Assembly (NCBI GenBank): GCA_019233165.1
Contig: JAFAMS010000260.1
Coordinates: 1 to 14,247, forward strand
Direction: 5' to 3'
Length of the DNA: 14,247 bases
DNA from: Vulcanimicrobiota bacterium
Lineage (GTDB): Bacteria > Vulcanimicrobiota > Vulcanimicrobiia > Vulcanimicrobiales > Vulcanimicrobiaceae
Position 1 is the stretch's first letter. Each line of letters begins with the position of its first letter. Below are positions 3,171 to 14,055 of the stretch, piece after piece. Below the pieces are notes generated by a model. The model saw only the letters and a program-made list of their open reading frames with translations. It had not been told where the DNA came from and ran no database searches. The translations under genes and the position numbers were made by a program.

Positions 3171-3728
3171 CTAGCGCAGCGCTCCGATCTCGCCGCAGGC
3201 GATCCGTCCGCCGCTTCCTCCCACCGGGGGCGTGTCGGTATAGTTGTCCGGATTCGCGTGGATCACGATCGAGCGCCCGACGATCGTGTCGCTCCCGCTG
3301 ACTTGCAGGCTCGGCGCGTAATACGCCAGGCCGCCGTTCCCCGCTGAGTCGATCGTCAGATTCGGGAGATCTCCTGCGTGCCCGCCGCCGTTCGGCCCGA
3401 GATGGTGTCCCGTATGGGCCGGATCGAAGTGACCGCCCGCCGCGGCGAACGGCGTTGCGACGCCCTGCGTGTCGCGAATCGCGAGGCAGGAGCCGACCTC
3501 GTGGATGTGCATCCCATGCTGTCCGGGCGGTAGGCCGCTGACGTTGATGATGATCTGCGTTCCGCCTCCCGGCTGCCCGATGAAGCGCGCGTCGCCGATC
3601 TGCTTTCCGGCGACGTTGAAGATCGGCGCATCGAACGTCTGGGGCGCCGCGAAGGCGACCGCACTGGGCCCGGCGAGCGCGCAAGCGAGAATGGCGAGCA
3701 GACCGATCGTCTTACGAGAGTCGACCAT
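3171..3728 (-). CDS. sodC: Exported Cu/Zn superoxide dismutase
   Basis: Converts superoxide to oxygen and hydrogen peroxide outside the cytoplasm; 185 residues. The N-terminus has a signal peptide (KTIGLLAILACALAG, small-residue cleavage area around 27-28). The metal site is complete: His74 and His76 in 'GMHIHE', bridging His100 in 'GGHFDP', His109 in 'TGHHLGP', His117 and Asp120 in 'HAGDLPNL', and His157 in 'IVIHA'. Cys81 and Cys178 are placed for the conserved disulfide, and 'GGSGGRIACG' is the typical C-terminal signature. ATG 3728 follows a GGAGGT with a rather short spacer of three bases. It lies 19 bases after the acetyl-CoA synthetase stop on the same strand and is probably co-transcribed with it. 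Bacterial SodC enzymes usually guard against superoxide made outside the cytoplasm. Confidence 0.95.
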   Translation of the reverse strand: MVDSRKTIGLLAILACALAGPSAVAFAAPQTFDAPIFNVAGKQIGDARFIGQPGGGTQIIINVSGLPPGQHGMHIHEVGSCLAIRDTQGVATPFAAAGGHFDPAHTGHHLGPNGGGHAGDLPNLTIDSAGNGGLAYYAPSLQVSGSDTIVGRSIVIHANPDNYTDTPPVGGSGGRIACGEIGALR

Positions 3729-6820: not shown

Positions 6821-7548
6821 CCGCCGACGAGCGCCGGCCCGAGCGCTTCGTCGCGCTCATCGATGCGGCGCTCGCAGCCTATGCGGCGCGCTGGCCTCTG
6901 TACATCGCCCTCGCGGCGGCGACGCTCGCTGCGGATTTGGCAATCGACGCCCTGGCGCGATTCGACGCCGTCGTCTTGTTGCTGACGCCGGCGTTCGTGG
7001 ACGGCTTTACGTCGGCGCTCGTCAGCATCGACGTCGCCGGTCGCGTCCGTGAAGAGCCGCTCGCGACCGGCGAGCTCTTTCGAGCGGCGCTTCTACGGTG
7101 GCCCGTCGTCGCCGTCGTCCTCGTCATCGTCTCGCTGATCGAAGAGCCGCTCCAGCTCGCCGTCTTCGGAAACCTCGACGAGACGGGTTACGGACTGCTG
7201 ATCCTGCCCGGACTCGCCGTCCTAGGAGTCTTGGGATTACCCTCCGTGATCGCGAGCCTTGACGAGGGCGTCCCTCCGCTCGCTCGTCCCGGGAATGCCG
7301 TTCTGCGCAGTCTCTTCATCGCGGCGACGTGGCCGAATCTTGGCCGGCTCACCCTCGCCGGCGCGATGCTGGCCGTCGTCTTCATGGTGCAGGAGCTCGC
7401 GATGCGCTGGCTCGGCGCGCACGGGATGGCGACCGCGCAGGCCTGGTTTTGGGGGAACATGCCGGCCGACGCACTTTTCCTCGCGCCGTTCCAGGCGTTC
7501 TTTACGCTCCTCTACCTCGACTTCGTCGTCCGAGAGAAGCGGCGCTAA
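6817..7548 (+). CDS. Polytopic membrane protein of unknown function (243 aa)
   Basis: Integral membrane protein, 243 residues from GTG 6817, which overlaps the previous stop by four bases. An amphipathic start ('RPERFVALIDAALAAYAARW') is followed by about five or six hydrophobic spans: near 28-42, 50-70, 93-110, 127-148, 175-195 and 215-235. The last, 'FQAFFTLLYLDFVVREKRR', has the look of the end of DUF-type families related to the membrane domain of glycerophosphodiester phosphodiesterases, where an aromatic-rich helix ends in 'LYxDxRVR'. That is only a resemblance. No catalytic motif is seen. Its TAA overlaps the stop of the convergent alpha-mannosidase gene by four bases, and no terminator is visible between them. 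Confidence 0.7.
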   Translation: MTADERRPERFVALIDAALAAYAARWPLYIALAAATLAADLAIDALARFDAVVLLLTPAFVDGFTSALVSIDVAGRVREEPLATGELFRAALLRWPVVAVVLVIVSLIEEPLQLAVFGNLDETGYGLLILPGLAVLGVLGLPSVIASLDEGVPPLARPGNAVLRSLFIAATWPNLGRLTLAGAMLAVVFMVQELAMRWLGAHGMATAQAWFWGNMPADALFLAPFQAFFTLLYLDFVVREKRR

Positions 7549-8795
7549 GGCTTTTCCGACTCCGCCGCGACGCGCCGCTGCTGCACCAGCTCGGCGTAGA
7601 GCGCGTTCGGCCACGCAAAGTCGGCGCGCGTATATGCCTCGGGCCAATCCGCGTTGAACGACTCGTGTAAGCGGTGATCGCCGATATCCGAGGCGGCGAT
7701 ATAATGCAAGACGCGAGCGACCTCGTCCCCATCCGTGCTGGTGAGCGCCTGCATCACCAGCGCCATCGGCCAAATGTAATTGTGCGGCGTGTGGGGACTC
7801 CCGATTCCCTCGGCATACTTGCCGACGTAATAATACGGGTTGCGCGGCGAGAGGATGAAGCCGCGGGTGCGCTGGTAGGTCGAATCGGAGACCGGCAGAT
7901 ACCCGAAGTACGGGATCGAGAGCAGCGAGGGGATGTTTGCGTCGTCCATGACGTTGGCGTGGCCGCGACCGTCGACTTCGTAGGCGTAGATCTTTCCGAC
8001 GCCTTTGAGGTCGACGTACCCGTACTGCTCGACGCCGCGCTCGATGTCGACACCCAGCCCCCACGCGTTCCGGGCCGACGCCTGATCGTGAAACACGTCC
8101 CGTTCGAGGTCGCCGAGCATCCGCATGACGACGACGGCAAACATGTTGACCGGGACGTTGTAATGGTACCGAACCGGATCGTCGGAGGGCCGGAATGCCG
8201 TCCAGACCATCCCCGTGTAGCGGACCGCCGAGCCGTTCCCACCGTTCGCCAGCTGGGGATTGCGGTAGTGCGAGCGCATTGCGTGGTGTTGCTCGTTCCG
8301 GAGGGTCGCAAGGATGAGGCGGTACGCTTTGGCGACGCTCGGCGTGAACACGGAACGGTCGCCGGTCTTTCGATAGTACTGCGCCGCGAACCAAACCGGG
8401 TAGAGCAGCGAATCGACCTCGAACTTTCGTTCGACCACCCGGTAATCGACGGAGAAAGCGTTCGCGTAGGGGTCGCGGAGGATGCACTTCGCCTGCCGGG
8501 CGACCAGCCCCCGAAGCATCTTCGCGATCTCCGGATCGGTCGTCGAGAGCGCGATGTAAGGAAGCACGACCGCAGCCGAGTCACGCAGCCACATCGCTTC
8601 GATGTCGCCGGTCGAGATGTACGTCGTTCCGTCCGACTCCAGGCGCGCGTGCCGGCTGATCGCTTCGTCGAACGCCGTCAAGTACAGCGGATCGAGCGTC
8701 GAAGCCGCTCGAGCCGAGGGTGCGCGCAGCGACAGCGAACCAACGGCGAGCGAGATCGCGAGGACGAATGCAACGACGAACCGGGGGAGGGTCAA
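7545..8795 (-). CDS. Exported glycoside hydrolase family 125 protein (exo-alpha-1,6-mannosidase type)
   Basis: Predicted metal-independent exo-alpha-mannosidase trimming alpha-1,6-mannose from mannans or N-glycan-like chains. Motifs, numbered from TTG 8795: 'GDIEAMWLRDS' (63-73), 'GMVWTAFRPSDD' (195-206), 'YEVDG' (272-276), 'MDDANIPSLL' (283-292), 'HESF' (377-380) and 'TRADFAWPN' (389-397). By position against the studied Streptococcus enzyme (recalled acid Asp220, base Glu393), Asp205/206 and Glu378 are the likely catalytic pair. A signal peptide ends near residue 30 ('APSARA-AS'). Start choice: TTG 8795 has a GGAGGA seven bases upstream and gives a classic signal peptide (LTLPRFVVAFVLA). 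ATG 8810 would add MEEAL, an acidic start unusual for a signal peptide, with no ribosome site. The gene stands alone, with no sugar transporter nearby. Confidence 0.9.
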   Translation of the reverse strand: MTLPRFVVAFVLAISLAVGSLSLRAPSARAASTLDPLYLTAFDEAISRHARLESDGTTYISTGDIEAMWLRDSAAVVLPYIALSTTDPEIAKMLRGLVARQAKCILRDPYANAFSVDYRVVERKFEVDSLLYPVWFAAQYYRKTGDRSVFTPSVAKAYRLILATLRNEQHHAMRSHYRNPQLANGGNGSAVRYTGMVWTAFRPSDDPVRYHYNVPVNMFAVVVMRMLGDLERDVFHDQASARNAWGLGVDIERGVEQYGYVDLKGVGKIYAYEVDGRGHANVMDDANIPSLLSIPYFGYLPVSDSTYQRTRGFILSPRNPYYYVGKYAEGIGSPHTPHNYIWPMALVMQALTSTDGDEVARVLHYIAASDIGDHRLHESFNADWPEAYTRADFAWPNALYAELVQQRRVAAESEKP

Positions 8796-8921
8796 AAGAG
8801 CTTCCTCCATCAACCGGAGCAAACTTTCGGTACGAACGGGTGCTATATCCTTATTTTCGGTGTAAGATTGACGCAGAACACTCCCCGTCGCAATCGTAAC
8901 GCCGAAAGCTTAACGTAACCC

Positions 8922-9758
8922 GTGCCCGCTAGGACCAACACTCGGTGTCTCACGTCGGTGCTCTTCTTGCTCGCGCCGATCTGGCTCGCCACCCCCGTGT
9001 TTGCGGAAGAACAAGTCTACCACGTCAGCGGGAAGGACAGCTTTCAAATCGGTTCGCGCGATCTTCGGAGCGACGTCGTCTACGACGGCGATCAAACGCT
9101 GACGATCGCTCACAAAGGTAAGACGACCCGCTACTCGGCGAAGGTTTCGTACACGCGCGTCGACCAGGGCGCGACCGAGAAGATGCTCGGCTCGTTCGTT
9201 TCGGTCGTTGCGCCCGACGGCGCGGAGCGGGACGAGGCGAACGGCGATCCCGATTTCTTGACGATCCTCAACCAACCGTTCGCCGTCCAGCTCGACGGCC
9301 AAACGCTGCACGACGTCACGCGCCTTCAGCAGCCGGCGCCCTTCTCGTTCTCGTCGCCGATGACGCGAGGGCAGCTGCATGGGACCCTGCGGCACCTTGC
9401 CGAGGGCCTGATTATCGCCGGCGAGCGCGTCGTCGGAATCGGCTTCGAGGCGCACGGTCCGATCAAGGGGAGCGTCCCCTCTCACCCGGAGATCGCGCTG
9501 ATCGGGACGATCCGCATGTCGGGGATCGCCTATTACACGGAACGATCGGCGCTCTTGCAGGGGCTCGATGCGACGCTGACGATCTCGGGCAACTTGGCGG
9601 ATCGAACGGCCAGCGATCCGGTCACGATCGTCTATAAGCGAAGCATCCGCGCTCAGGAGCCGGCCGCGGCTCCAGCCGGCGCCGCTAAGTCGACGCGAGC
9701 TCCGAAGAAAGCTCGACCTCCAGAGGTCGCGTCAGAACGCGATCGCCGAGCTCGATGA
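8922..9758 (+). CDS. Secreted hypothetical protein (278 aa)
   Basis: Unrecognised exported protein of 278 residues. A signal peptide is clear: basic head 'MPARTNTR', hydrophobic core 'LTSVLFLLAPIWLA' and cleavage after 'TPVFA' (about residue 28). The mature part is beta-rich and without cysteines. It ends in a low-complexity Ala/Pro/Lys/Arg tail ('APAGAAKSTRAPKKARPP', about 250-270). GTG 8922 is used because it gives the complete signal peptide; no good Shine-Dalgarno sequence precedes it. A TTGACG at 8868-8873 could be a -35 box, but I see no convincing -10 partner. The last 74 bases overlap the 3' end of the convergent 9685-10101 gene, which is long for a tail-to-tail overlap. The basic tail may therefore be a stop-codon drift rather than a folded part. 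Confidence 0.7.
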   Translation: MPARTNTRCLTSVLFLLAPIWLATPVFAEEQVYHVSGKDSFQIGSRDLRSDVVYDGDQTLTIAHKGKTTRYSAKVSYTRVDQGATEKMLGSFVSVVAPDGAERDEANGDPDFLTILNQPFAVQLDGQTLHDVTRLQQPAPFSFSSPMTRGQLHGTLRHLAEGLIIAGERVVGIGFEAHGPIKGSVPSHPEIALIGTIRMSGIAYYTERSALLQGLDATLTISGNLADRTASDPVTIVYKRSIRAQEPAAAPAGAAKSTRAPKKARPPEVASERDRRAR

Positions 9759-10101
9759 AGTTGCTGAACGAGAGATGCTCTTGATGGCAGTCGATGAGCA
9801 TCTGTATGCCGCGTTTGACGCTTCCCGTCTTCTCTACGTATTTTGAGACCTTGCGCTTGAAGTACCCGTGCGGGTTGCGCAAGACCTCGGCGTAGTACGG
9901 ATCGTCGGTCAATCCCGCCGGATCGACGCCGGCCTTCGGGACCAACCATACGAACGACGGATCGCATCCGTCGTTATATCCGATGATCACCAGGGGGATC
10001 GCATGCGCCGTGCGCGACGTTCCGTCCGGCAACCGGGGAACGAAACTGCACAGCGTATAGGCATCGAAGGCAAGCTCCTTGGGTTCGATCGGAACGGACA
10101 T
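9685..10101 (-). CDS. Hypothetical cytoplasmic protein (138 aa)
   Basis: Unrecognised soluble protein of 138 residues. ATG 10101 is chosen because GGAGG (plus-strand 10109-10113) sits seven bases upstream. The longer frame to 10218 would start inside the hairpin region and has Arg/Pro-rich, shadow-like content. Visible features: 'AFDAYTLCSFVPRLPDG', a hydrophobic strand 'AIPLVIIGYNDG', 'SFVWLVPKAGVD', 'NPHGYFKRKVSKYVEKTG' and 'MLIDCHQEHLSFSNFIELGD'. No signal peptide or membrane span. Its upstream region is unusual: a strong intrinsic terminator lies between the likely promoter and the ribosome site, so expression may depend on read-through. The 3' end overlaps the neighbouring secreted-protein gene by 74 bases. 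It is read divergently from the ECF sigma gene. Confidence 0.65.
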   Translation of the reverse strand: MSVPIEPKELAFDAYTLCSFVPRLPDGTSRTAHAIPLVIIGYNDGCDPSFVWLVPKAGVDPAGLTDDPYYAEVLRNPHGYFKRKVSKYVEKTGSVKRGIQMLIDCHQEHLSFSNFIELGDRVLTRPLEVELSSELAST

Positions 10102-10129
10102 TCGTGAGCCTCCGAGCGAAATCGGGCGC

Positions 10130-10161
10130 AAAAAAACCTCGCGCGGCGACTGCCGGCGAGG
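10130..10161 (-). terminator. Intrinsic terminator upstream of the 138-aa gene
   Basis: On the - strand, bases 10161-10137 form a stem of ten pairs: CCTCGC pairs with GCGAGG (outer six), one bulged base (10143), then an inner CGGC/GCCG stem and a four-base loop. Seven Ts follow directly (10136-10130). This is a textbook intrinsic terminator. Oddly, it points into a gene: it lies 28 bases before ATG 10101 and just before its GGAGG. It therefore either ends a small RNA or acts as an attenuator for the 138-aa gene. Confidence 0.75.
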
Positions 10162-10245
10162 CTGGGTTGGCGCTAGGCGAACCATAGGCCGGGGTTCGCG
10201 TAGGCGCTGAAGGAGCACCTTCCGCGTTGCCCAAACGCGAAACCC
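10130..10245 (-). ncRNA. Candidate structured leader RNA or sRNA, - strand
   Basis: Read right to left, the RNA would start about eight bases after a TATAGT box (10258-10253) with GGGTT (10245-10241). That can pair with AACCC (10168-10164) as a closing stem P1. Inside P1 are three adjacent perfect hairpins: 10239-10223 (CGCGTT/AACGCG), 10222-10209 (GAAGG/CCTTC) and 10199-10177 (GCGAACC/GGTTCGC). The terminator hairpin and T-run follow. The third loop contains CCGGC, able to pair with GCCGG in the terminator's 5' arm. GGTGCT and two copies of AGCGCC offer a competing fold. This architecture fits a riboswitch-like attenuator of the 138-aa gene or a free small RNA. It matches no class I know. 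Folding was done by eye. Confidence 0.4.
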
Positions 10246-10265
10246 TCACAGTACTATAGGCGGTC
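10239..10265 (+). promoter_or_regulatory. Candidate ECF-type promoter before the sigma gene
   Basis: GAAACC (10239-10244) and CGGTC (10261-10265) are separated by 16 bases. ECF sigma factors commonly read -35 boxes of the GGAAC/GAAAC kind and -10 boxes of the CGTC/CGGTC kind at this spacing, and often drive their own operon. If used, transcription would start close to ATG 10277, giving a very short leader. A vegetative -10 (TACTAT, 10252-10257) lies in the same spot, so this assignment is tentative. Confidence 0.3.
10252..10258. promoter_or_regulatory. Symmetric -10 element, possibly bidirectional
   Basis: The heptamer reads TACTAT on the + strand (10252-10257) and TATAGT on the - strand (10258-10253), inside a near-palindrome around AGTACT. 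Symmetric -10 boxes that fire both ways are known in bacteria. The - strand reading places a start at about 10245, exactly at the 5' end of the predicted RNA fold. No good TTGACA-like -35 is seen on either side; TTGCCC at 10227 gives a long 19-base spacer for the + strand. Confidence 0.35.
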
Positions 10266-10276
10266 TGGGGGCGCGT

Positions 10277-10939
10277 ATGGCAGCGCTCGCACCGCTCGAC
10301 CGGGAGTCACGCTTGGCCCAGCCCGCAGCGGCTACGGCACCCTCTCGTTCCGAAGCAGGTACGCCGGGGCCGGAGAACTTCGAACGGATCGTCGACGAGT
10401 ATCAACGACGACTCTACGGTTTCGCGCTGCGCATGACGGGCAACCGAGAGGATGCCGAGGAGATCGTTCAGGACGCGTTCGTACGCGCGTACCGGGCGCT
10501 CGCGAAGATGGACCCCAAGCAGCGCGCCGAGCTGCGCTTGCAGCCGTGGCTGTACACGATCACGCTGAACGTCACGCGCAACCGGTTGCGCAGCAAGCGC
10601 CCGTCCAACGTTGCCTTGGACGCGCTCGCCGATCCGGACGCTCTCCTCAACGAAACGCAGGAAGGTCCGGATCAACCGGAGGCGATCATCGAGCGGGGGG
10701 CCGACATGGTCCTCGTCGAGCAGGCGCTGCTGCAGCTTCCGATGCATCTGCGCGCCGCCGCGACCCTGCGGTTCATCGAGGGGCGCAGCCACCCGGAGAT
10801 CGCCGAGATCCTCAACCAACCGATCGGAACGGTGAAGTCACACGTGCATCGAGCGGTGCGCATTTTGCGGCGGATCCTAGGCCCGCAAGTCGGCCGGATC
10901 GCCCCGCAGGAAGGAGACGCTGCCCATGCGGTGCTCTGA
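10277..10939 (+). CDS. ECF-type RNA polymerase sigma factor
   Basis: Extracytoplasmic-function sigma factor of 220 residues that directs RNA polymerase to a small regulon. After a disordered Ala/Pro-rich head (1-33) comes region 2 (about 35-105) with 'FERIVDEYQRRLYGFALRMT', 'NREDAEEIVQDAFVRAYRAL' and 'PWLYTITLNVTRNRLR'. A linker (106-144) follows, then region 4 (about 145-200), whose helix-turn-helix 'RSHPEIAEILNQPIGTVKSH' recognises the -35 box. ATG 10277 is the only reasonable start; the preceding GGGGG is a weak ribosome site. The 3' end overlaps the ZAS-alkyltransferase gene by 14 bases, the normal arrangement for a sigma factor and its cognate anti-sigma factor. Its regulon cannot be read from the window, but autoregulation is plausible from the ECF-like boxes at 10239-10265. 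Confidence 0.93.
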   Translation: MAALAPLDRESRLAQPAAATAPSRSEAGTPGPENFERIVDEYQRRLYGFALRMTGNREDAEEIVQDAFVRAYRALAKMDPKQRAELRLQPWLYTITLNVTRNRLRSKRPSNVALDALADPDALLNETQEGPDQPEAIIERGADMVLVEQALLQLPMHLRAAATLRFIEGRSHPEIAEILNQPIGTVKSHVHRAVRILRRILGPQVGRIAPQEGDAAHAVL

Positions 10940-11693
10940 TCTCGTACGTTTGTGGGACGATCTGCGCGAGGCCGGCGCGGCCCCGTCGCGCGAGGCGGTT
11001 CTCGCCCACCTTCGTCTTTGCTCGGATTGCCAAGATGCATACCGCGAATACGAAGGGATTGCGTACTGTCTGACGTGTCTCCCCGTCGTCGAGCCGCCCA
11101 CGGGTCTGGTTCCCAAGATCCTCGAGCACATCAACTCCCTGCGGCCGGCGTCGCCGGATATGTTCTCGCACGTACGCAGCCCGCTCGGCGACTTGATCGT
11201 CGCTTTCCGTGAGACCGGGATCACGGCGATCGCGATCTGCAGCGAAGACTCCGATTCCTCGTTGTGCGAATCGATCGCCAAGAGGCTGCGCCGCGGCCTC
11301 GTCCCCGCAAAGGCGCCGCAATGGGTGATCGACGTGGTCGAGAGCTACTTTCGCACCTTCGACGCCGATCGCTCGAAGGTCGATATCTCGGCGCTCACCG
11401 AGTTCGAGCGAGCCGCACTCCGCAAAGCCGCCGAAATTCCCTGCGGTGAAGTTCGCTCGTACGGATGGATCGCCCGGGAGATCGGCCAGCCGGCCGCCGC
11501 GCGTGCCGTCGGCCAGGCAATGGCGCGCAATCCCGTCCCCCTTTTGTATCCATGCCACCGCGTCGTCGACTCGACCGGGGCGCTGCACAACTACGCGTAC
11601 GGGCTCGAGCTCAAAGCGCGGATCCTCGAGATGGAAGGCTACGTTCCGCCGGCACGCGCGGTGAATGCGGGCGCAGGTGCGAGCAGGGCGTAA
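10926..11693 (+). CDS. ZAS anti-sigma domain fused to O6-alkylguanine-DNA alkyltransferase
   Basis: One uninterrupted 255-residue frame joins two known modules. Residues 1-72 form a zinc-binding anti-sigma (ZAS) domain: Cys3, then the exact H-x3-C-x2-C motif (His28, Cys32, Cys35) and the usual trailing helix 'LVPKILEHI'. An extra CxxC (Cys48, Cys51) follows the motif. Residues 80-242 are a complete DNA alkyltransferase of the Ogt/MGMT family: 'IPCGEVRSYGWIAREIG', Arg193 as the base-flipping Arg finger in 'ARAVG', hinge Asn202, acceptor Cys210 in 'PCHRVV' with His211, and Glu237 in 'EMEG' completing the triad. The family repairs O6-alkylguanine by irreversible transfer to the Cys. AAGGAG (10911-10916) sits nine bases before ATG 10926. 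With the overlapping ECF gene, a role as cognate anti-sigma and alkylation sensor is inferred. The 'NYAYG' near 222 departs from the usual GYAGG. Confidence 0.92.
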   Translation: MRCSDLVRLWDDLREAGAAPSREAVLAHLRLCSDCQDAYREYEGIAYCLTCLPVVEPPTGLVPKILEHINSLRPASPDMFSHVRSPLGDLIVAFRETGITAIAICSEDSDSSLCESIAKRLRRGLVPAKAPQWVIDVVESYFRTFDADRSKVDISALTEFERAALRKAAEIPCGEVRSYGWIAREIGQPAAARAVGQAMARNPVPLLYPCHRVVDSTGALHNYAYGLELKARILEMEGYVPPARAVNAGAGASRA

Positions 11694-11786: not shown

Positions 11787-11875
11787 ATCGTTACAAGCGA
11801 CAGTAGCAAACGATTCGATACGATGATTGGAGGTGCTGCGGCGTAACGGTCGCAGCGACATTCTGTGTTCGACTC

Positions 11876-11903
11876 AGAGCCGGCGGACGTCGGCTCTTTT
11901 TTT
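11876..11903 (+). terminator. Intrinsic terminator after the sigma/anti-sigma operon
   Basis: AGAGCCG (11876-11882) pairs perfectly with CGGCTCT (11891-11897) around an eight-base loop, followed by seven Ts (11897-11903). It lies 183 bases after the alkyltransferase-fusion stop and 58 before the pyroglutamyl peptidase start, so it separates the two transcription units. It also argues against a pcp start upstream of 11961, since the open frame back to 11865 would run through the terminator. Confidence 0.85.
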
Positions 11904-11960
11904 GCCCTGTCGAATCGCGGAAAAAGGCTCCGACCCCAGCGCGGCAAACGAAGGGACGCA

Positions 11961-12674
11961 GTGTCTAAGCACGTTCTGGTGACCGGTTTCCAGCCGTTTG
12001 ACGACTTCAAGGTCAACCCCAGCGAGATGCTGGTCCGGGGCTTGGAGGGCCGGCTCATCTCGGGGCGTCTCGTCGTAGGCCGAGTCCTCCCCGCCGAGAG
12101 CCGGACGCTGGAACAGCGGCTCCGCGAGATCCTCGCCGAGGAGAAGCCCGAGGTCATCATCGGAACGGGACTCGCAGCCGGGCGCCCCGCGCTCGCGCTC
12201 GAGCGCATCGCGATCAACCTCGTCGATCACGACCGGCCGGACGCCGTAGGGACGGTCCGCCGAGGAGACCCGATCCATCGCGGCGGACCCGAGGCGCGCC
12301 TCGCGACGCTCCCGCTCGATGCGATCAAAGCCGCCTGGGACGCGCAAGCCGTCCCCGGATACGTCTCCAACACCGCCGGGACGTACCTGTGCAATCAAAT
12401 GCTGTACACGGCGCTGGGTCTCGTCAACGAGCTCACGCCGCCCCCCGTCTGCGGCTTCATCCACCTCCCGGCGCTCCCGTCCCAGGCGGTCGAGCTCGGC
12501 CCGGAGCGCACGCCGTCGATGACGGTCGAGACGATGAAGAAAGGGCTCGAGGTCGCGATCGACGTGATCGTGCCGTGGCTCGAACAAAAGCCCGCCGAGC
12601 GGCTGGGCGCGCGCCGGCAGACGGCCGCGAACAGCATGTGGATTCCGCGCGGCTTGAAAGAAGTCGAGCGATAG
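11961..12674 (+). CDS. pcp: Pyroglutamyl-peptidase I (peptidase family C15)
   Basis: Removes N-terminal pyroglutamate from peptides in the cytoplasm; 237 residues, slightly longer than the ~215 usual for the family because of a basic tail. GTG 11961 starts directly at the conserved 'KHVLVTGFQPFDDFKVNPSE' and is preceded by AAGGGA at a workable distance. The catalytic triad is visible: Glu81 in 'LERIAIN', Cys144 in 'SNTAGTYLCNQ' and His168 in 'GFIHLP'. The PHP-domain gene follows after seven bases and a putative peptide-binding lipoprotein after that, so the unit may serve peptide uptake and breakdown. The tail from about 210 ('PAERLGARRQTAANSMW') lies beyond the family core. Confidence 0.93.
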   Translation: MSKHVLVTGFQPFDDFKVNPSEMLVRGLEGRLISGRLVVGRVLPAESRTLEQRLREILAEEKPEVIIGTGLAAGRPALALERIAINLVDHDRPDAVGTVRRGDPIHRGGPEARLATLPLDAIKAAWDAQAVPGYVSNTAGTYLCNQMLYTALGLVNELTPPPVCGFIHLPALPSQAVELGPERTPSMTVETMKKGLEVAIDVIVPWLEQKPAERLGARRQTAANSMWIPRGLKEVER

Positions 12675-12681
12675 CCTGGCT

Positions 12682-14055
12682 TTGAGCGACAATCACCACC
12701 GTCGGGACGCGCGTATCGCTGCGATCCCCGACACGCATGGGCACGCCAAGGGCGAGCACAAGGCCTTCGCAGAGGAACGGCCGATTCCGTATTCCGCTCG
12801 GATGCTCTTCTTGTGGTTCTACCACGCCTGCCGCCGCGGTTTTCCACGCTTCATGATGGTCGCCGACCACATGAACTATCTCACCTTCGAGGACCCTGCC
12901 GCCGTCAATCTCGTCAGGCGCGCGTTGAAACTTGCGCAAGCCGGAGACTTGTACGGCGCCGCCGAGACGGCGAGCGTCGAGGTCGCACACGCCGCGACCG
13001 TATCGGAAGGTTTGCGCAGAGGGATGCGGTTCTCGATCGGTGCCGAGATCGACAACGATCCTCGCAGTCGCCCCGACGCGCAAAACATCGTGGACGCCAT
13101 GCGTCCCGACGCGATGATCCGTTCCGTTCATTTCCTGACGATCGAGCACCCGACGGCCGGCCCGAATTACAATTGGGCGTTCGACAACGATGAGTTCGTC
13201 GCACTCTACGATCACGTCGGAACCGAGAGGACGTGGCAGCTCTACATGGAGACGCTGCTCAAGGCAATCGAAGAGCTTCCGGGTCAAATCGTGGGTCACT
13301 TTTTCGTCCCGGCGCTGTTCGGGCACTGGCCCGACAATGAGACGCTCGAAAAGTACGAAGATCAAGTCGTCGCCGCCGCCAAGGCGAAGGGCATGGCGAT
13401 CGAGTTCAACACGCGTTTCCTGTACCGCGATTCTCCGCCCGAGGCAAAACAGAAATACCTCGACGCGAACCGGCGGCTGCTGCGAAAATGTCGCGACGCC
13501 GGCGTCACGATCTCGGTCGGATCCGACGCGCACAGCCCCAAAGATCAGGGCGGCGCGTTCGACACCGTCCTTCAGGTTCTCGACGAGCTCGGGATCAACG
13601 AGATCGCGTTCCCGATCGGCGGCCGTTTGGCGCGGGTCGCGCTTCGCGTCGTCCAGGTGGCGCCGCCGAAGCCGAAGCCGGAACCGGAGCGCCGCGTCCC
13701 GGCGCGCGCCGGCGCAGCCCGCAAGACGCCGTCGCCGGCGCGACCCATCGGCCGCCAGCCGCCGCCGCGCAAGCCCGTAGCAGCGAGCGCGAAGCCGCAG
13801 GCTCCGGCGAAAAAAGAGAAACCCGCGGTCAAAAAGACGGCGCGCCCGCCGGCGAAGAAAACCGCGCCGATAAAAAAGGCGGTCCCCGCAAAGAAGCCGG
13901 TGGCGAAGAAAGCCGTCGCCAAAAAAGCAGTCCCGGCAAAGAAGGCACCCGCAAAGAAGGCGGCTGCAAAGAAAGCGCCGCCGGCAAAACGGCTCGCACC
14001 CAAGCGCCTTGCGGCTAAGAAGCCCGCGTCGAAGAAAGCCGGGAAGCGCCGTTAG
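12682..14055 (+). CDS. PHP-domain protein with histone-H1-like Lys/Ala/Pro tail
   Basis: Residues 1-326 form a PHP (polymerase and histidinol phosphatase) metal-dependent hydrolase domain. Candidate metal ligands: Asp17/His19/His21 in 'DTHGHAKGEH', Asp62-His63 in 'VADHMNY', Glu122 in 'IGAEID', His150 in 'SVHFLT', His206 in 'GHFFVP', Glu241 in 'IEFNTR', and Asp282/His284 in 'GSDAHSP'. The set resembles histidinol-phosphatase-like enzymes, but the substrate is unknown. Residues 327-457 are a disordered basic tail, first Pro/Arg-rich, then many AKKA/PAKK units, resembling histone H1 or AlgP-type C-termini; DNA, RNA or polyphosphate binding is plausible. TTG 12682 is the only start that keeps the first metal motif; no ribosome site is seen and it lies seven bases after pcp, so coupling is likely. 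The tail is in frame with no sign of a frameshift. Confidence 0.85.
   Translation: MSDNHHRRDARIAAIPDTHGHAKGEHKAFAEERPIPYSARMLFLWFYHACRRGFPRFMMVADHMNYLTFEDPAAVNLVRRALKLAQAGDLYGAAETASVEVAHAATVSEGLRRGMRFSIGAEIDNDPRSRPDAQNIVDAMRPDAMIRSVHFLTIEHPTAGPNYNWAFDNDEFVALYDHVGTERTWQLYMETLLKAIEELPGQIVGHFFVPALFGHWPDNETLEKYEDQVVAAAKAKGMAIEFNTRFLYRDSPPEAKQKYLDANRRLLRKCRDAGVTISVGSDAHSPKDQGGAFDTVLQVLDELGINEIAFPIGGRLARVALRVVQVAPPKPKPEPERRVPARAGAARKTPSPARPIGRQPPPRKPVAASAKPQAPAKKEKPAVKKTARPPAKKTAPIKKAVPAKKPVAKKAVAKKAVPAKKAPAKKAAAKKAPPAKRLAPKRLAAKKPASKKAGKRR
13804..14052 (+). repeat. Degenerate coding repeat (AKKA/PAKK units)
   Basis: Codes for residues 375-457 of the PHP protein. Short units of GCG/GCC, AAG/AAA and CCG codons (for example 'gcaaagaagg', 'gtcgccaaaaaagca') recur imperfectly and encode PAKK, VAKKA and APAKKA. 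Such tracts arise and vary in length by slippage. The tract is purine-rich on the + strand, unlike its flanks. Confidence 0.7.

Follow-up and report, generated by a model that had tools for sequence, protein, structure and literature searches.

A putative zinc anti-sigma domain fused to a DNA alkyltransferase beside an ECF sigma factor in Eremiobacterota: a candidate alkylation switch

To our knowledge, the ECF/anti-sigma switches known so far sense envelope, metal or redox signals. The locus described here raises the question whether DNA alkylation could be such a signal as well: in the window (the whole stretch of DNA analysed, 14,247 nucleotides), the gene of an ECF sigma factor runs into a second gene, which encodes a putative zinc anti-sigma (ZAS) domain and an O6-methylguanine methyltransferase (MGMT) in a single chain (Table 1). 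The host is a soil bacterium.

The gene pair and its neighbourhood

An earlier note on this DNA had claimed a ZAS zinc motif and a full alkyltransferase in one frame, overlapping the ECF gene by 14 bases. Both open reading frames (ORFs) and all residues that it named were located, with C3, H28, C32, C35, R193, N202, C210, H211 and E237 under the numbers it had given them, and the bases common to the two frames are 10926-10939. In Pfam, the sigma ORF matches Sigma70_r2 (3e-17) and Sigma70_r4_2 (4e-14), and the nearest NCBI model is SigW (1e-32, below that model's cut-off).

Table 1. Features of the ECF-fusion locus in the window.
Feature	Position	Strand	Remarks
Probable ECF-type promoter	10236..10265	+	CGCGAAACC-N-GCGGTC; ends 11 bases 5' of the sigma start codon
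ECF sigma factor, regions 2 and 4	10277..10939	+	220 aa; Pfam and NCBIfam
ZAS-MGMT fusion	10926..11693	+	255 aa; 14-base overlap with the sigma gene
Zinc anti-sigma domain, residues 1-70	10926..11135	+	C3, H28-x3-C32-x2-C35, helix-4-like EPPTGLVPKILEHI, invariant H68
Alkyltransferase, residues 84-238	11175..11639	+	Y179, R193, N202, P209-C210-H211-R212, E237
Pyroglutamyl peptidase (Peptidase_C15)	11865..12674	+	Pfam; true start may be inside the ORF
PHP-type phosphoesterase (HisJ-like) with Lys/Ala/Pro-rich, histone-H1-like tail	12682..14055	+	Pfam, PDB and NCBIfam matches

The pair was searched for in 149 genomes of the phylum, 103 of which belong to families f1 and f2 of one order of Eremiobacterota. 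A full-length fusion is present in 93 of these 103 genomes; the remaining ten, all less than 90% complete, have either a piece at a contig end (five) or none (five), and all 60 genomes of the order at 90% completeness or more carry the fusion. Its origin by chance, frameshift or assembly error is ruled out by the 93 full-length copies. The ECF gene lies directly upstream in 91 of the 93, overlapping the fusion by 14 bases in 75 of the 91 and by 11 bases in five, with gaps of 0 to 8 in the other 11; in the two without an upstream ECF (L069 and L075) the contig ends 64 and 103 bases upstream. The claimed ECF pairing therefore withstands a check for the same architecture lacking an ECF neighbour. 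In family f3, which belongs to the same class, and in more distant groups, the matches listed begin no earlier than column 61 and are plain MGMTs. Thirty genomes of these groups yielded no close relative of the ECF (best E 2.5e-24, 29-40% identity), so that ECF and fusion share one boundary.

Used as a query, the N-terminus of the window fusion retrieved 51 proteins, of which 49 contain PF01035 and two do not, one of them a fragment and the other a copy with an apparent frameshift; a divergent N-terminus retrieved four proteins, all with PF01035. In a wider scan of genome contigs, 80 of 182 loci were compared, and all 80 share exact 60-base stretches with known loci of the phylum. Two records labelled Rhodospirillales (L122 and L124) have identical stretches with the Eremiobacterota-phylum loci L017 and L018; this origin was rejected and the records are probably mislabelled MAGs. 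By tblastn, the fusion was matched over at least 80% of the query in one of 328 plasmid records (Bernardetia, residues 38-247) and in none of 17 phage records.

Among the 64 loci with wider flanks, the PHP-type phosphoesterase gene follows the fusion on the same strand in 61, its alignment beginning within 60 bases of the fusion end in 20, and the pyroglutamyl peptidase gene is found 3' of the fusion in 32. The PHP protein is similar to the histidinol phosphatase HisJ (2yxo, 3.4e-12; NCBIfam 3.5e-22, below cut-off). Its histone-H1-like tail is seen by eye in the printed members that are not cut by a contig end, except for L089, where the frame stops early and contains masked residues. A phosphoesterase with a histone-like tail is in this way tied to the ECF-fusion gene cluster, and a role in DNA metabolism would be a guess. 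On the other side of the pair, a divergent gene (9685-10218, minus strand) with no Pfam or NCBIfam match is found upstream in 50 of the 64 loci, and an unclassified protein with a signal-peptide-like start by eye (8922-9758, plus strand) in 51. Further away in the window lie a GH125 metal-independent alpha-mannosidase (7545-8822, minus strand, 3e-119) and an ORF resembling, by eye, Cu/Zn superoxide dismutase (3171-3728, minus strand).

The anti-sigma domain and its zinc site

Judged from sequence, the ZAS domain is marginal in a single protein and clear in the family. The window fusion alone matches zf-HC2 weakly (0.063, below the Pfam cut-off) and an NCBIfam anti-sigma model at 2e-4, far below the model's cut-off. 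A profile was built from 38 aligned N-termini (37 loci and the window, out of the 93 full fusions), whose invariant columns include C3, W10, H28, C32, C35, L49, L52, L61 and H68. Searched against the PDB, it matches RsiW (5wuq_C, 5.8e-5, positions 15-74) and 3hug_B (0.0039; record title 'probable conserved membrane protein'), which we take to be RslA. At E<=0.1, the individual N-termini match the antisigma model NF052375 in 36 of 38 cases, the RsrA model TIGR03988 in 33, zf-HC2 in 27 and ChrR in 13; the match to RsiW and the 36 antisigma matches bear out the ZAS identity that the earlier note had proposed. As an independent check, the profile was applied to the ORFs flanking the top-scoring other ECFs from outside the order, at 30 loci in 29 genomes; it matches anti-sigma-like ORFs beside unrelated ECFs of other families at 20 of the 30 loci, 19 of them at E<=0.0036 (E for a small ORF set). 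An HxxxCxxC motif follows the ECF within 200 bases on the same strand in 13 of these 30 loci. The fusion has the features of a class I zinc anti-sigma factor (ZAS/ASDI), namely HxxxCxxC with an upstream ligand, homology to ECF anti-sigmas and an ECF neighbour, and we infer that its ZAS domain inhibits the neighbouring sigma factor. According to passages of PMC7406223, class I anti-sigmas contact sigma4 through helix 1 and sigma2 through helix 4. In the fusions, a short linker of near-constant length connects the helix-4-like segment with the strand that opens the MGMT N-domain: H68 is kept in all 93 full copies, and the H68-G88 spacing is 20-24 residues in 92 of them and 30 in one.

The zinc site itself admits a different signal. 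All four ligands (C3, H28, C32 and C35) are kept in 93 of 93 full fusions, giving the CHCC set of an RsrA-type redox switch. The CHCC site of RsrA is of the redox-sensing kind, and its N-terminal zinc cysteine is needed for oxidative release, as stated in parts of PMC4960319; an RsrA-like thiol sensor is for this reason a live rival to sensing by the alkyltransferase. Oxidants or soluble electrophiles would then hit the CHCC site and expel the sigma factor, and the MGMT would be a payload made on demand with no sensing role. Besides the invariant ligands and the RsrA-model matches, this explanation draws on a further thiol pair, C48-x2-C51, present in most members (C48 in 77 and C51 in 74 of 93), and on the over-representation of zinc motifs among soluble ASDIs, again in passages of PMC7406223. 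That the CHCC site fits redox sensing as well counts against the alkylation switch considered below. The site is, however, not special to this locus, since ZAS-like ORFs beside other ECFs of the phylum often carry the same pattern, with an M-x-C start as well as HxxxCxxC; none of eight scanned window proteins matches a thiol-reductase family, and a sister couple described in the last section retains the alkyltransferase with no ZAS domain recognised by Pfam. A thiol sensor is, in our judgement, the strongest rival and still unlikely. The earlier note's interpretation is partly supported, in its architecture, its anti-sigma reading and its ECF pairing; it had missed both the redox-type CHCC site and the precedent of ECF122.

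The alkyltransferase, the promoter and a possible switch

The second domain resembles Ogt/MGMT enzymes in all catalytic residues and in its C-domain (Pfam DNA_binding_1, 6e-29, residues 159-238; NCBIfam ogt, 8.8e-27), and differs from them in the 70-residue ZAS domain placed in front and in a weakly recognised N-domain (Methyltransf_1N, 0.0019, below cut-off). The PCHR acceptor motif, the Arg finger, the Asn hinge and the Glu of the relay are all found. Across the 93 full fusions, the acceptor C210 is invariant, as are Y179, N202, H211, R212 and E237, and R193 is kept in 92. This intact active site argues for a sensor domain that is an active suicide alkyltransferase. An active-site loop LHNYxYG (residues 221-226; H221 in 92 and Y225 in 91 of 93), which we take to be Ada-like, bears on one proposed experiment. 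Ada has Trp at the position matching Tyr225 and resists O6-benzylguanine; a pull-down of the fusion with this compound may therefore fail for a trivial reason. No other PF01035 match occurs in the genome from which the window comes (2.79 Mb, 80% complete), and among the order's 60 genomes at 90% completeness or more, six have the fusion as the sole MGMT found, so it probably must still repair DNA.

Two published properties of OGTs suggest how such a domain could act on its neighbour. Once alkylated, OGTs unfold or undergo degradation, and the contact between their two domains is disturbed; in addition, an OGT changes shape upon DNA binding, before transfer (both from passages of PMC5751216). 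The second property, together with the conserved DNA-binding residues R193 and Y179, would suit a lesion tether that needs no chemistry, in which binding of the MGMT to alkylated or indeed any DNA pulls the anti-sigma off the sigma factor and transfer serves repair only. Such a tether would not need the invariant C210, although repair alone would keep that residue, and we regard the tether as improbable.

The reading that we prefer, and to which we give about an even chance, is a cytoplasmic, self-inducing alkylation switch in which the anti-sigma factor is itself the suicide repair enzyme. In the undamaged state, the ZAS domain would keep the ECF sigma factor inactive. C210 would accept an alkyl group from DNA, once and irreversibly, and the enzyme part would lose its fold; because the short linker connects the enzyme's first strand with the sigma-binding helix 4, the ZAS grip would probably be lost with it and the sigma factor freed. 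Release on alkylation leans, by analogy, on the published unfolding of OGTs and on the ASDI contact between helix 4 and sigma2. The free sigma factor would then use the conserved promoter to transcribe the operon that encodes it, and fresh ZAS-MGMT would both repair DNA and re-capture sigma, so that the amount of unspent repair enzyme would set sigma activity. Since relatives keep the sigma gene and the fusion together, spending the repair enzyme may be what flips the switch.

The promoter step was followed in upstream regions of the relatives. The 82 regions taken were those of ECF ORFs at E<1e-80 with the landmark QRRLYG; four of them (two duplicates and two truncated copies) were dropped to leave 78. 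The relatives' motif is approximately TGAAACC-N15-GNGGTC and lies mostly 10-25 bases from the sigma ATG; as the alignment was anchored on GAAAC, the remaining positions alone are informative, and it missed 11 of the 82 regions, including the window, whose start codon context fell outside the filter. The motif is present in 58 of the 78 regions, or in 34 of 49 once redundancy is removed, and was not found in the other 20 (15 non-redundant), compared with a mean of 0.2 and a maximum of 2 in shuffled versions of the 49 regions and 0 of 78 when reversed. In the window, a transcript from the promoter would probably be near-leaderless.

In 18 genomes of one genus, the strict motif occurs at 11 places, ten of them at the ECF-fusion operon, with seven genomes having none; in the window's genus it occurs at three places, two at the operon. 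The two extra sites (L203 and L192) lie within long open frames. A relaxed pattern gave 28 matches in six genomes, six of them at the own operon, against 14 in a backward control. Upstream of 74 alkylation-repair loci (the 30 best AlkB, the 30 best AAG and 14 AlkA), the strict motif was found in none (2 of 74 in the reversed control) and a looser motif in two, as in its control. This footprint suggests that the sigma gene is likely autoregulated from the conserved promoter. A wider alkylation regulon found no support in these AlkB, AAG and AlkA loci. The absence of the motif from the repair loci, its near confinement to its own operon and the 20 regions in which it was not found count against the alkylation switch. 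So does, by analogy, the case of E. coli Ada, whose transcriptional switch is the phosphotriester-accepting zinc cysteine and not the cysteine that accepts from O6-guanine.

Sister couples and known systems

A second ECF type in the phylum is followed by an MGMT whose C-terminus carries an Ada_Zn_binding domain (PF02805; loci L264-L277 and L280). PF02805 matches three of these proteins at 5.8e-12, 4.7e-15 and 2.1e-14 and two others at 0.0019 and 0.0035, below the Pfam cut-off, the four Ada zinc cysteines are kept in seven of seven aligned proteins, and neither a ZAS domain nor an HTH is found in them by Pfam. The couple is full length in 15 of the 149 genomes (E<=1e-40), with the ECF directly upstream in all 15, its match being split over two frames in L273; a sixteenth copy (L278) is truncated at the end of its contig, and G130 has a partial match. 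A helix-4-like segment scores p<0.02 in eight of 12 linked proteins and above this in four, and one plain MGMT scores p 0.0017 elsewhere in its chain, which makes the segment suggestive only.

Couples of the sister type were also found among Actinomycetota by plasmid tblastn, in Nonomuraea gerenzanensis (with a 4-base overlap), Streptomyces NBC_00503 and NBC_01022, and Rubrobacter radiotolerans (L368, L370, L371 and L372); in NBC_00464, the ECF and MGMT genes stand close together in the tblastn listings. A plasmid of Streptomyces sp. NBC_00212 (L369:1530-2876) encodes one annotated protein of 448 aa that comprises sigma region 4, MGMT and Ada_Zn, with no Pfam match to sigma region 2. This single-chain gene is followed by a separate MGMT gene.

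These ECFs were compared in two trees, for which 18 of the 93 fusion-linked and 13 of the 15 sister ECFs were used. In the first, with 66 ECFs and long branches, 36 MGMT-linked sequences stand apart from 30 others (support 100/99). For the second, with 70 ECFs, six rows were dropped (the Streptomyces single-chain protein, Rubrobacter and four others) and ten outside ECFs added; 34 MGMT-linked sequences are separated from 36 others across one branch (100/93, and 100% of 200 bootstrap trees). The other ECFs are matches of the window's or the Nonomuraea ECF and not a random sample, and the outside ones are called MGMT-free by annotation, three lying in unannotated stretches and the Tsukamurella ECF being itself unannotated. 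As the trees are midpoint-rooted, the MGMT-linked ECFs form one side of a branch and not a proven clade.

The sister couple gives the best indirect evidence that the constant partner of the ECF is the alkyltransferase rather than the zinc site. The coupling of ECF and alkyltransferase would then be the old core and the ZAS domain a lineage-specific addition. The same couple, having no recognisable anti-sigma domain, also suits a positive arrangement, in which the fusion escorts sigma-RNA polymerase or the repair enzyme is simply co-made with an ECF that is controlled elsewhere. The Streptomyces plasmid polypeptide, with sigma region 4 joined to MGMT-Ada_Zn, and ECF122, recorded without an anti-sigma in passages of PMC8999054, point the same way. 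The window fusion, however, has a ZAS domain related to inhibitory anti-sigmas, and we consider a positive arrangement improbable. Returning to the alkylation switch, its extension to an ECF lineage of Eremiobacterota and Actinomycetota is a tentative proposal, held at slightly less than even: a suicide alkyltransferase would regulate the sigma factor, and its depletion would free the sigma that remakes it, an Ada-like logic in three architectures (ECF with ZAS-MGMT, ECF with MGMT-Ada_Zn, and ECF-MGMT-Ada_Zn as a single chain).

The closest precedent in print is ECF122, which resembles the window in that an O6-methylguanine methyltransferase lies near an ECF sigma gene. In the accessible passages (Casas-Pastor et al. 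2021, cited in PMC8999054), the methyltransferase is a conserved neighbour and the mechanism is given as unknown; unlike the window, the group is described there without an anti-sigma and with no ZAS domain named, a comparison made by description. The actinobacterial ECF-MGMT pairs examined here are MGMT-Ada_Zn and not ZAS-MGMT. ChrR, RsrA and RshA (ECF11, ECF12) are soluble and regulate an ECF through an N-terminal zinc anti-sigma domain, as the fusion presumably does. ChrR also has a C-terminal sensor domain (passages of PMC8999054), which is cupin-like, whereas the window fusion has a DNA-repair alkyltransferase in that place. Like E. coli Ada, the fusion contains a suicide alkyltransferase and probably governs its own production; it differs in having neither Ada_Zn nor an AraC-type HTH by Pfam, and it would act through a sigma factor. 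In the sister couple, MGMT and Ada_Zn are present without the HTH, as if the ECF had replaced the latter. The fusion thus probably works like Ada without being a member of Ada. A literature search by title and abstract start found no ZAS-MGMT fusion among the papers listed, with most subscription papers outside its coverage, nor did titles on Eremiobacterota sigma factors name one, in agreement with the earlier note, which knew of no described case. As far as these sources go, the ECF-MGMT neighbourhood is already in print and the ZAS-MGMT fusion is apparently new.

If the proposed switch is true, an ECF factor would read DNA damage directly, through the consumption of a repair enzyme and without a kinase or protease. 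This would amount to Ada logic with a different output device, would offer a self-resetting part for alkylation biosensors, and would give ECF122-like pairs a testable mechanism.
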